Of a DNA stretch of 32,608 nucleotides, positions 6,797-18,073 are shown piece by piece; the first letter of the stretch is position 1, and every line of letters begins with the position of its first letter. Location: the NCBI GenBank assembly GCA_020354065.1, contig CP070640.1, positions 289,799-322,406 on the forward strand. Direction: 5' to 3'. Below the pieces are notes generated by a model that saw nothing but the letters and a program-made list of their open reading frames with translations, did not search any database and was not told the DNA's origin. Position numbers and translations under genes: made by a program. Source of the stretch: Candidatus Bathyarchaeota archaeon (GTDB lineage: Archaea > Thermoproteota > Bathyarchaeia > TCS64).

Positions 6797-7126
6797 CTAT
6801 TTCTTTCCTCCATGGACCTCTAAGATGTGCTTCTCCAACTCCTCCCTAGTCTTGAAGTTGAGCTTACAGGACTCACATTTGAAGAGCTCGCTCGCCCTCT
6901 CGTGCTCCCTCAAGTGCTCCTCCAGCTCTTTGTTAGATAGGAAGCTGAGACCACATACCTCACATTTGAACTCCTCATCGGACAATGGTATACCCAATAT
7001 TTGTTGTCGAACGGCGAAATATGAATAAACCGAGTCTCTGTTTGCCTTAAACCTATTATCCACCTCAAATGCTCTCACAGCCCTGCTGTTCTCCTCCTCC
7101 AAGGGTATGACATGTACGATATCCAC
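6797..7126 (-). CDS. Two-finger C2H2 zinc-finger protein
   Basis: The product is 109 residues. Two classical C2H2 fingers occupy the C-terminal half: FKCEVCGLSFLSNKELEEHL... with C-x2-C-x12-H-x3-H spacing, and FKCESCKLNFKTREELEKHI... with C-x2-C-x12-H-x4-H spacing. The N-terminal 50 residues (VHVIPLEEENSRAVRAFEVD...) are not recognised. Small C2H2 proteins are scattered in archaea and are presumed to bind nucleic acid or protein; nothing here identifies a target. The start is a GTG at 7126, preceded so closely by GGAGGT that a leaderless start is more likely than SD-driven initiation. It is divergent from the aminotransferase gene at 7245. Confidence 0.82.
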   Translation of the reverse strand: MDIVHVIPLEEENSRAVRAFEVDNRFKANRDSVYSYFAVRQQILGIPLSDEEFKCEVCGLSFLSNKELEEHLREHERASELFKCESCKLNFKTREELEKHILEVHGGKK

Positions 7127-8520: not shown

Positions 8521-8596
8521 TGGTGGACTGGGAGGGATTTGAACCCCCGACCTCTGCCATGCCAAGGCAGCATTCATACCACTGAACTACCAGCCC
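8521..8596 (-). tRNA. tRNA-Ala (anticodon GGC)
   Basis: The minus strand folds into a complete cloverleaf of 73 nt plus an encoded CCA. The acceptor stem is GGGCTGG/CCAGTCC, including the G3-U70 wobble pair that is the alanine identity element. The D stem is GTTC/GAAT, the anticodon stem CTGCC/GGCAG closes loop TTGGCAT with anticodon GGC, and the T arm has loop TTCAAAT. The discriminator is A, and the 3' CCA is encoded (8521-8523). There is no intron. A T-rich TATA-like element on the minus strand at about 8616-8630 would serve as its own promoter. Confidence 0.95.
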
Positions 8597-8689: not shown

Positions 8690-8696
8690 AAAAAAA
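8690..8696 (-). terminator. Oligo-T terminator of the 68-nt RNA
   Basis: Seven consecutive T on the minus strand follow the closing helix of the candidate RNA after three bases (ACC). This fits the T-rich terminators used by archaeal RNA polymerase and separates the RNA from tRNA-Ala downstream. Confidence 0.6.
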
Positions 8697-8699
8697 GGT

Positions 8700-8767
8700 G
8701 GACAGGGGGGAGCCCCCGCTGCCTCGTGGGGGAAACAAGCGGTCAGCCTCCCCTTTTCCTCTTGTCC
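8700..8767 (-). ncRNA. Candidate 68-nt structured small RNA, possibly pseudoknotted
   Basis: Three signals bracket one short transcript on the minus strand. A TATATATA box at 8789-8796 lies 26 nt before 8767, and the RNA ends in a closing helix followed by ACC and seven T (8690-8696). From 8767 the RNA can form P1 GGACA/TGTCC (8763-8767 with 8700-8704), P2 GGGGAG/CTCCCC (8748-8753 with 8707-8712), P3 GCTG/CAGC (8744-8747 with 8718-8721) and P4 CTTGT/ACGAG (8735-8739 with 8723-8727). The P4 loop carries CCCCC (8728-8732), which can pair with GGGGG (8713-8717) between P3 and P2, making a pseudoknot. An alternative pairing CCGCT/AGCGG competes with P3 and P4. There is no reading frame of note. 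It matches no family I know; C/D boxes and SRP or RNase P signatures are absent. Confidence 0.6.
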
Positions 8768-8807
8768 AGATTCAATCTGTATTATCGGTATATATACAGA
8801 TTCTGTA
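8767..8807 (-). promoter_or_regulatory. TATA promoter flanked by two palindromic operator-like sites
   Basis: The TATA box TATATATA is at 8789-8796. A 13-bp palindrome CAGATTCAATCTG (8767-8779) covers the predicted transcript start. A second one, TACAGATTCTGTA (8795-8807), abuts the upstream edge of the TATA box where the BRE would lie. Their centres are 28 bp apart, they share the CAGATT half-site, and a further CAGAT half-site follows at 8811. Binding at either site would block TBP/TFB or RNA polymerase, so this looks like a repressor-controlled promoter. TATATATA is itself symmetrical and could also fire rightwards. Confidence 0.55.
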
Positions 8808-8913
8808 TCACAGATCCATAACACCTTGGGGTAATCGCATTAGAAAACCCGGGAAAACCCAATCGAGAAACCTATAAGAGGCTCGCGACTTATTCCGATA
8901 CCCGGCGATTCTG

Positions 8914-9393
8914 ATGGATAAAGACGTTGCGGCCCTGAAGAAATTCACCGAGTTCGCCTTCGACAGCCTCGAGAGAACCTGCAAAGACCTCACTGAGAAG
9001 GAGACAGAGTGGAGACCCATGGAGGAGTCCAACGACATCCGCTGGATCCTCAATCACCTCTCCCGTGTATCAAACCTCAGCCTGCCCAGGATCATCATGG
9101 GCGACCAGGAGTATACCCCTGAGGGCTGGCCCAAGGACTACAGGGAGCAGACCTACTCAGCGGAGAAGCTGATGAGCGACATAAAAGCGGGGAGAGCGGC
9201 TGTGATCGAGGGCCTGGAAGGCCTGACCTCTGAGGATCTAGCTGAGGAGATCCCCCTATGGGGAGGAACCCGGCAGCGCCAGTTCGCGCTCAACGCCTAC
9301 CTGGCGGAGATCGTCAACCATAAGGGCCAGATAGCGATGCTCCGAGGCAGCATCAAGAGGCGTAGGGAGAAGAACGAGCACTTCCTCGTCTAG
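8914..9393 (+). CDS. DinB-like four-helix-bundle protein
   Basis: This is a 159-residue protein with the DinB/DUF664 pattern: an N-terminal helix with SLERTCKDLTEKE, the RWILNHLSRV segment containing the first metal-ligand His (His48), and a C-terminal helix with AEIVNHKGQIAMLRG. Family members bind a divalent metal through a His triad and include thiol-dependent S-transferases (for example bacillithiol and mycothiol enzymes). Here His48 and His136 are present, but the usual third His, four residues before the last, is replaced, so metal binding may be altered. A TATA element CCTATAAGAG at about 8871-8880 gives a short leader before the ATG at 8914. Confidence 0.8.
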   Translation: MDKDVAALKKFTEFAFDSLERTCKDLTEKETEWRPMEESNDIRWILNHLSRVSNLSLPRIIMGDQEYTPEGWPKDYREQTYSAEKLMSDIKAGRAAVIEGLEGLTSEDLAEEIPLWGGTRQRQFALNAYLAEIVNHKGQIAMLRGSIKRRREKNEHFLV

Positions 9394-10010: not shown

Positions 10011-11357
10011 ATGAGCGATGACAAGGGCCTTGTGAGGGCACCGGGCAGGATCACCCAACAGCAGTACAGGTTCATCGAGGGCCTCGTAGAGCAGGGACGC
10101 TTCAGCTCCATGAGCGAGGCTGTGAGGGCCGCCATAGACAGCTTCGGCATGAGGAGCACCCACAATGGGGGAGCATTCCTCATAGGGGAGGCTTTGGTGG
10201 GGGAGGGAGACGAGGTCGCACACATCGATCTCATGATCGGTGACAAGCAGGGACCCGTCGGTTTATCCTTCGCCCAGTCCCTGAGCAACCTTACAGCCGG
10301 GCACACCCCCCTACTCGCCGTCATCAGACCGAACCTGCCACCGAAACCCCACACCGTCATCGTCCCCAAAGTCACAGTTAAGAACATGCAGGACGCCGGA
10401 AAGATCTTCGGACCCGCTCAGTCAGCGGTCGCGAAGGCCGTGGCCGACGCAGTGGAGGACGGGATAATCCCGAGGGCTATCATCGACGACTGGGTCGTCA
10501 TCGTCAGCGTCTTCATCCACCCGAAGGCTCGCGACGAGCGCAAGATCTGGCACTACAACTACAGCGCCACAAAGCTCGCCCTGAGCAGGGCCCTCCAGTC
10601 ATATCCACCCTGGGAGAAGATCATGTACGACAAGGACAGGGCCAGGCATCCGTTGATGGGCTTCAGGGCCCCGAGGCTCTGGCGGCCGCCATACCTCCAG
10701 ATCGCCCTGGACAACCCGAACATCGAGATGATCAAGAGGGTCATCCAGCAGGTCCCCAAGAGCGACAACATCCTCCTGGAGGCGGGTACCCCCCTCCTCA
10801 AGAGGTACGGGGTCGGCGTCATCCGCTCGCTCAGGGAGGCCAGGAGCGACAGTTTCATCATCGCCGACCTGAAGACTATGGACGTGGGCAAGGTGGAGGT
10901 GGACATGGCCTTCGACGAGACCGCCGACGCAGTCTGCTGCGCAGGGGCAGCCTCATCGGCAACGATCGACGAATTCGTCTACGAAGCGAGAAGGCTTGGC
11001 ATATACTCCTTCGTAGACCTGATGGAGGTTGGCGACCCCCTCACCAAGCTCAAATCCCTTAAGAGGTTGCCTGACATCGTCATCCTCCACAGGGCGATCG
11101 ACGTGGAGCAGCGGGGCGGCGAGGTCAGGTGGGGGTATATAGCTGATATCAAAGAGGCGTTCAAGGACAAGAAGCTGCTCATCGCCGTGGCAGGCGGCAT
11201 CAGGCCCAACACCGCCCAGTTCGCTCTGGATGCCGGGGCGGACATACTGATCGTCGGTCGGTACATCACTCAGTCCAGGGATGTGGAGCGATCGGTCAGA
11301 GAGTTCCTCCCGCTGCTGAGAGGGGACATCGACCTCTTCCGGGTCCACGTCGAGTAG
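10011..11357 (+). CDS. fae-hps: Ribbon-helix-helix / formaldehyde-activating enzyme / 3-hexulose-6-phosphate synthase fusion
   Basis: The 448-residue protein has three parts. Residues 12-46 ([20 protein letters not shown], then [13 protein letters not shown]) have the pattern of a ribbon-helix-helix DNA-binding domain. Residues 54-215 are Fae, with catalytic His71 in [14 protein letters not shown] and the conserved [19 protein letters not shown] segment. Residues 226-440 are Hps, a (beta/alpha)8 barrel with LQIALD, the catalytic DLKTMD (D-x-K-x-x-D) motif and a GG-IRP phosphate-binding region. Fae condenses formaldehyde with tetrahydromethanopterin. Hps interconverts ribulose 5-phosphate plus formaldehyde with hexulose 6-phosphate, which in archaea makes pentoses and releases formaldehyde for Fae to capture. 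The hexulose-phosphate isomerase is not nearby. The enzyme fusion is known in archaea; the N-terminal RHH-like extension is the odd feature. Confidence 0.93.
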
Positions 11358-16858: not shown

Positions 16859-18073
16859 CTATTGCCTTACCCCCACGAAGCAGACTCTGTCCGAGACGGA
16901 GCCCCTCTCAAGAACTCCCATAAGGTTCTCGTAGATCCCCCGGATCATCTGGGGGCTCGTGTCACGGCCTCCCAGGCCGTAGATGTAGTCCACGACCATG
17001 GGCTTCTCAGGCTGGTCGTAGAAAGTGGTCTTGACCTCCTCGTATAGAGGGCCGCCTGGAGCCCCGAAGCTTGCCGCCTTGTCCAGCACCCCCAAGACGG
17101 GGACGTTCCCCACGGTCTTTATCAGCTCCTCCACGGGGAAGGGCCTGAAGACCCTCATCTTGACCAGTCCGGCCTTGACGCCCTCCTCCCTCAGCTGGTC
17201 GACCACATAGCGCACTGTGCCCATGGTTGACCCCAGGCCCAGGATGGCCACCTCCGTGTCCTCCATCCTGTAGGGGTGGAGGAAGTCGTAGCTCCTTCCA
17301 GAGATCTTGGCGTACTCGGCGTCAATCTCCGGGATGGCCTTGAGTGCTTGCTTCATGGCGTCTATCTGCTGGAGCTTGTGCTCGAAGTAGTAATCCTGCA
17401 GGTCGAGGGGGCCCATGGTCAGAGGACATTCGGGGTTGAGCCGGAGCTCGGTCTCCCCCATGTGGCCCTCGACCTTGATGAACTTCCTCTCGCTGACGAA
17501 GTCCCTAACCTTTTCGTCAGGGAGGGTGTAAACGTTCTCCATGGTGTGGCTCAGGGTGAATCCGTCGAGGCAGACCATGACGGGCAGCTGGACATCCAGG
17601 TGCTCCCCGATCCTCCAGGCGGCGAGGCTGGCGTCGTAGACCTCCTGGCTGTTCTCGCAGTAGATCTGGATCCAGCCGCTGTCCCTGGCGCCCATCGAGT
17701 CGCTGTGGTCGGTAGGGATGTTGATAGGGCCGCTCAGCGCCCTGTTCGCTATGGCCATGACGATCGGCAGCCTCATGCCAGAGGCTATGTATGTCATCTC
17801 CCACATGAGGGCTAGACCGTTGGCAGCTGTAGCAGTGAAGGCCCTCGCCCCGGCAGCAGCGGCGCCGATGCAGCTGCTGAGGGCACTGTGCTCGGACTCG
17901 ACGGCTACGAACTCGGTGTCCACCTCGCCGTCAGCGACGTACTCGCTGAACCTCTCCACGATGATGGTCTGGGGGGTGATTGGGTAGGCGGCGACGACAT
18001 CAGGGTTCACCTGTTTCGTGGCATAGGCAACTGCCTCATCCCCATTCAGGCCCATGAGTATCTGGTTTTTCAT
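16859..18073 (-). CDS. porA: Pyruvate:ferredoxin oxidoreductase, alpha subunit
   Basis: This 404-residue subunit has the expected PorA features: GDEAVAYATKQVNPDVVAAYPITPQT near the N-terminus, the EHSALSSCIGAAAAGARAFT segment with the active-site region, ANGLALMWEMTYIASGMRLP, and the C-terminal transketolase-like domain (LGSTMGTVRYVVDQLREEGV; FRPFPVEEL). It pairs with PorB to form the catalytic core, providing the pyrimidine-ring side of the TPP site. Its ATG overlaps the porD stop by 4 nt, and its own TAG sits in the porB SD, so porD-porA-porB are translationally coupled. Confidence 0.96.
   Translation of the reverse strand: MKNQILMGLNGDEAVAYATKQVNPDVVAAYPITPQTIIVERFSEYVADGEVDTEFVAVESEHSALSSCIGAAAAGARAFTATAANGLALMWEMTYIASGMRLPIVMAIANRALSGPINIPTDHSDSMGARDSGWIQIYCENSQEVYDASLAAWRIGEHLDVQLPVMVCLDGFTLSHTMENVYTLPDEKVRDFVSERKFIKVEGHMGETELRLNPECPLTMGPLDLQDYYFEHKLQQIDAMKQALKAIPEIDAEYAKISGRSYDFLHPYRMEDTEVAILGLGSTMGTVRYVVDQLREEGVKAGLVKMRVFRPFPVEELIKTVGNVPVLGVLDKAASFGAPGGPLYEEVKTTFYDQPEKPMVVDYIYGLGGRDTSPQMIRGIYENLMGVLERGSVSDRVCFVGVRQ

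Follow-up and report, generated by a model that had tools for sequence, protein, structure and literature searches.

A candidate species-restricted small-RNA unit beside tRNA-Ala(GGC) in a Bathyarchaeota genome

The source genome is a Bathyarchaeota metagenome-assembled genome, present as 1 contig of 1.5 Mb with an estimated completeness of 76.7%. In the window (the whole stretch of 32,608 nucleotides that was analysed), a 68-nt segment is placed between the gene for tRNA-Ala(GGC) and a divergent gene of the DinB superfamily (Table 1). The nearest named relatives of a neighbouring gene belong to Candidatus Bathyarchaeota QDN_3, bin16 and BS750m-G27. A DinB scan of named genomes gave no match. 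Positions 10011-11357 (plus strand) encode a fused Fae-Hps-like protein with 80-86% identity in named Bathyarchaeota relatives, where its gene is likewise close to the tRNA-Ala/DinB pair, and the product of positions 6797-7126 (minus strand) is a small protein that carries two C2H2 zinc fingers. The single-contig genome, at its 76.7% completeness, gave just 20 matches to tRNA and none to rRNA.

Table 1. Features of the segment, its neighbours and a possible pairing site (positions in the window)
Feature	Position	Strand	Remarks
tRNA-Ala(GGC)	8521-8596	-	neighbour; own conserved upstream box
T7 run, presumed archaeal oligo-T terminator	8690-8696	-	direct reading, terminator-like scan
Candidate 68-nt RNA	8700-8767	-	GGACA at start, TGTCC at end; predicted irregular hairpin
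Terminal arm GUUUC-CCCCAC-GAGGC, C-rich loop	8721-8736	-	predicted fold
P3 5' strand CCGCU	8738-8742	-	partner AGCGG 8716-8720; core pair probabilities 0.99-1.0
P2 5' strand GGGGAG	8748-8753	-	partner 8707-8712; pair probabilities 0.87-0.98
P1 5' strand GGACA	8763-8767	-	partner TGTCC 8700-8704; DNA permits sixth pair 8768/8699
Repeated ACAGAT/ATCTGT half-sites around TATA box	8766-8809		ATACAGA-A-TCTGTAT; ACAGATTGAATCTG
TATA box TATATATA	8789-8796	-	-29 to -22 from G1 of the 68-nt segment
DinB-superfamily protein gene	8914-9393	+	neighbour, divergent
Possible pairing site GCTTCGTGGGGG	16870-16881	-	porA end, shortly before porB Shine-Dalgarno

Direct reading of the minus strand bears out the layout given by the initial annotation, namely a box about 26 nt ahead of GGACA, a closing TGTCC and a T7 end. 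The centre of TATATATA is located 25-26 nt upstream of GGACA, which is an archaeal promoter position (-29 to -22); its fit with archaeal start sites argues for a small-RNA unit. At the other end, TGTCC is followed by ACC and then by T7, which provides an oligo-T termination site at 8696-8690. TATATATA occurs once in the window (shuffles predict 0.03 occurrences), 7-nt A/T runs only twice, and the box and the T-run are about 100 nt apart, in the correct order and on the correct strand. Their combination is the strongest portion of the case for a small RNA. The annotation had described the unit as having its own promoter and terminator: the elements are there and outline a candidate unit, but the TATATATA region does not match the BRE/TATA consensus that PMC3124441 gives for Pyrococcus abyssi. 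The tRNA gene has its own conserved upstream box, distinct from TATATATA. The latter is thus not needed for the tRNA and would need another purpose, and the segment is indeed separate from tRNA-Ala, as had been claimed.

The joint pattern of a TA-rich box, a 5-bp closing stem and at least six T was evaluated with criteria that were chosen post hoc; on that basis, of 1000 shuffles of the 317-nt intergenic DNA at this locus, 6 contained it, as did none of 20 whole-window shuffles. This coincidence of box, stem and T-run exceeds the shuffles, which speaks against the main rival, namely that some 160-190 nt of non-functional lineage-specific intergenic DNA, inserted or expanded between tRNA-Ala and DinB, contain by chance an imperfect, GC-rich inverted repeat together with a TA-rich stretch and a run of A/T. 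As a window holds about 25 intergenic gaps, the local rate of 0.6% is not overwhelming.

Two of the repeated ACAGAT/ATCTGT half-sites form near-perfect palindromes around the TATA box, and the repeats look like a putative operator. No other genomic site lies within one mismatch of the operator-like 15-mer, and a regulon for the ATACAGAATCTGTAT palindrome was rejected on this ground.

The GC content is 70% over 8700-8759, compared to about 45% in the surroundings. The annotation considered a small GC-rich, switch-capable RNA in an AT-rich strip improbable by chance; the local GC contrast is confirmed, but 3.7% of all 60-mers of the window, whose GC content is 57%, are equally GC-rich, so that GC content alone is weak evidence. 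A protein-coding remnant was rejected, since the three short ORFs that cross the segment (on both strands) have no Pfam match.

The minimum-energy fold is a single irregular hairpin, with predicted energies (in kcal/mol) of -32.7 for the 68-mer and -34.4 for the 78-mer. It consists of the helices GGACA/UGUCC, GG/CC, GGGGAG/CUCCCC, CU/GG, CCGCU/AGCGG and GUUUC/GAGGC, and is capped by the loop CCCCAC. The nested P1-P4 structure proposed initially reaches only -22.3 kcal/mol (-24.6 with two extra P1b pairs) against -34.4 kcal/mol for the 78-mer, and does not hold. The proposed pseudoknot (C36-40:G51-55) fares no better: the nested scaffold contributes -18.6 kcal/mol and the C5/G5 helix adds -9.1, which gives a total of about -28 (about -30 with P1b) before any penalty, so that it is some 4-7 kcal/mol worse than the hairpin with the penalty uncounted. 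This pairing would also disrupt the CCGCU/AGCGG helix, which had been presented as a competing switch element and is instead predicted as the core of the minimum-energy fold (probabilities 0.99-1.0). No competing folds of similar energy, as expected for a riboswitch or a pseudoknot switch, were found.

The predicted stability of the hairpin is modest and ordinary for its composition. Compared to dinucleotide shuffles, the z-score is -1.65 to -1.74, with 9-11 of 200 shuffles equally good, so that folding is not clearly beyond composition; z-scores of -1.65 or lower are obtained for 7.7% of the window segments. The absolute stability is matched by only 0.3% of these segments, which counts in favour of a small-RNA unit. 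The opposite strand folds almost equally well (z of -1.25 to -1.47). The ordinary z-score and the folding of the opposite strand are what non-functional DNA would be expected to show.

The syntenic comparison covered three genomes of the same genus (G001, G002 and G003) and one of another genus of the same family (G006). In all four, tRNA-Ala and DinB are divergent neighbours, separated by about 130-157 nt, compared to 317 nt here; the gap is thus 160-190 nt shorter. It retains the promoter side of the tRNA, with a conserved CCTAAAAA block, and that of DinB, and neither a GC-rich hairpin nor a T7 is found in the gap of any of the four. The simplest history is that about 160-190 nt were gained on the lineage of the source genome. 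The initial annotation had itself named relatives that keep the neighbouring genes and lack the pairing as the finding that would tell against it, and this is what the comparison gives. The absence of the segment from all the relatives that retain both neighbours also favours its being non-functional DNA, as does the absence of any homologue in the searches described below. We regard non-functional DNA as a serious contender, with somewhat less than an even chance of being correct, nearly that of the preferred reading.

The element is single copy in its own genome. A blastn search of this genome and of 100 relatives returned only chance-level pieces outside the source locus. The best of them (E 1.6e-4, in 1 of the 101 genomes, G007) was rejected as a chance match: it is an A-rich stretch in a coding frame, and this frame has an M23-peptidase-like match below the family cut-off. 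A covariance model (R1), built from the single sequence, retrieved nothing else above noise in 27 genomes of the family, and only the window itself in 257 genomes of the class, so the covariance search across related genomes that had been suggested yielded no support. Weak R1 matches (13-17 bits) were rejected, the two that were checked for ORFs being inside open frames. As there are no homologues with compensatory changes in the 27 family and 257 class genomes, no covariation can be counted and the fold rests on one sequence. This conservation comparison is the decisive test, and it points against a conserved RNA. Support for the idea of a new RNA that is structured and switch-capable goes no further than an orphan candidate.

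Lineage-restricted DNA of this kind could also be the remnant of a mobile element (a MITE-like end or a decayed insertion) beside a tRNA gene. The extra DNA is confined to one lineage and is bounded by the imperfect inverted repeats TGGACA.../...TGTCCA, both of which would be consistent with such an origin. We nevertheless consider it unlikely, given that there is no second copy in the genome, no match in phages, plasmids or viral contigs (the viral scan being that of one exact 20-mer only), and no recognisable target-site duplication or transposase. In addition, tRNA genes are usually invaded at their 3' side, and the segment lies 5' of the tRNA gene.

Could the segment belong to one of the known archaeal RNA classes without having been recognised, for instance as an H/ACA guide, a C/D guide or a degenerate or split tRNA? 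Its size and its own promoter would be consistent with this, its 3' GUCCACC is similar to the 3' end of tRNA-Ala, and one way of drawing the fold gives a 5-bp/7-nt arm that resembles an anticodon arm. However, there is no ANA box 3' of the hairpin, where the tail is ACCUUUUUUU, and no k-turn, the internal loop GCUGA/GGG having no G-A tandem. There is no C box (RUGAUGA) either, and the single CUGA is internal rather than a D box near the 3' end. The tRNA reading was rejected because neither a D arm nor a T arm is present (ARAGORN, Rfam) and only 16 nt separate the arm from the 3' acceptor strand; ARAGORN does not recognise the RNA as a tRNA, and the R1 match to tRNA-Ala in L106 has an E-value of only 0.61. 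Rfam gave nothing meaningful at gathering or relaxed thresholds, in agreement with the earlier statement that no known family is matched; mir-4429 and Magnesium-II (E about 1) are on the wrong strand. The sequence largely refutes membership of a known class, which we consider scarcely credible.

The reading that we prefer, tentatively and at slightly less than an even chance, is that of a young, species-restricted small-RNA transcription unit. It is narrowly favoured over non-functional lineage-specific DNA. Weighing against it are the absence of homologues in the genome itself, the family and the class, the absence of a syntenic hairpin, and a z-score of about -1.7, so that the segment is no more than a species-restricted candidate for a small RNA, of putative function. 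TATATATA would direct RNA polymerase to a start near 8767, and transcription would stop inside the T7 run, to give a transcript of about 68-78 nt. The latter is predicted to fold into a single GC-rich hairpin, which is irregular and ends in a C-rich loop. The product is possibly an antisense sRNA: if active, it would most likely act, by analogy with sRNA162 (see below), by pairing of its C-rich loop with a G-rich mRNA near a ribosome-binding site.

One possible target is found in the window. Nucleotides 36-47 of the RNA (CCCCCACGAGGC) are complementary to 16881-16870 on the minus strand (12 bp including one G-U), a stretch which comprises the last porA codons and is about 10 nt upstream of the porB Shine-Dalgarno. 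None of 200 shuffled loops equalled this match over the 29 gene starts of the window. The same 12-mer class is matched exactly at three further non-self sites of the genome, each of them within a coding frame, so that one match in four near a start is unremarkable; we estimate the chance of one falling near a start at roughly 15-20%. Compared to the two RNAs folded separately, the cofold is better by only 4.7 kcal/mol. The complementarity is thus a lead and not evidence. It is very unlikely, in our opinion, that this is a recently born Bathyarchaeota antisense RNA which, by a 12-bp pairing of its C-rich loop with the porA-porB junction at a distance of 8 kb, tunes the pyruvate:ferredoxin oxidoreductase operon at its second cistron.

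If the segment is transcribed, it would exemplify the birth of a regulatory RNA gene in a single Bathyarchaeota lineage, at a site flanked by two conserved genes that can still be seen empty in the closest relatives. Our literature searches turned up no work on regulatory RNA in Bathyarchaeota. Being a single orphan candidate which is not conserved, the segment carries small weight.

The candidate resembles the adjacent tRNA-Ala(GGC) in its 3' GUCCACC and in one possible 5-bp/7-nt arm; unlike tRNA genes, it has no D arm and no T arm, and has CCU in place of CCA. It also resembles the sRk RNAs of Pyrococcus abyssi (PMC3124441), which are also small, structured and intergenic, with a TATA box and a GC-rich patch. 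The sRk RNAs were found partly via GC-rich patches (PMC3124441); the genome of the candidate is not AT-rich. They have been detected by Northern blotting, and the majority are conserved with covariation across Thermococcales (PMC3124441), whereas the candidate has no relatives.

The sRNA162 of Methanosarcina mazei is proposed to mask an internal ribosome-binding site, and its homologues are confined to two close relatives (PMC3510493). The candidate is likewise archaeal, intergenic and restricted in range. In contrast, sRNA162 is an RNA of 191 nt that has three stem-loops and pairs through a single-stranded linker of 39 nt, compared to about 70 nt and one hairpin without a linker; its expression and its targets have been shown, whereas the candidate is a predicted RNA. 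For the masking, sRNA162 uses a different part of its sequence. The porB lead may be compared to the way in which sRNA162 is proposed to mask a second cistron's ribosome-binding site (PMC3510493).
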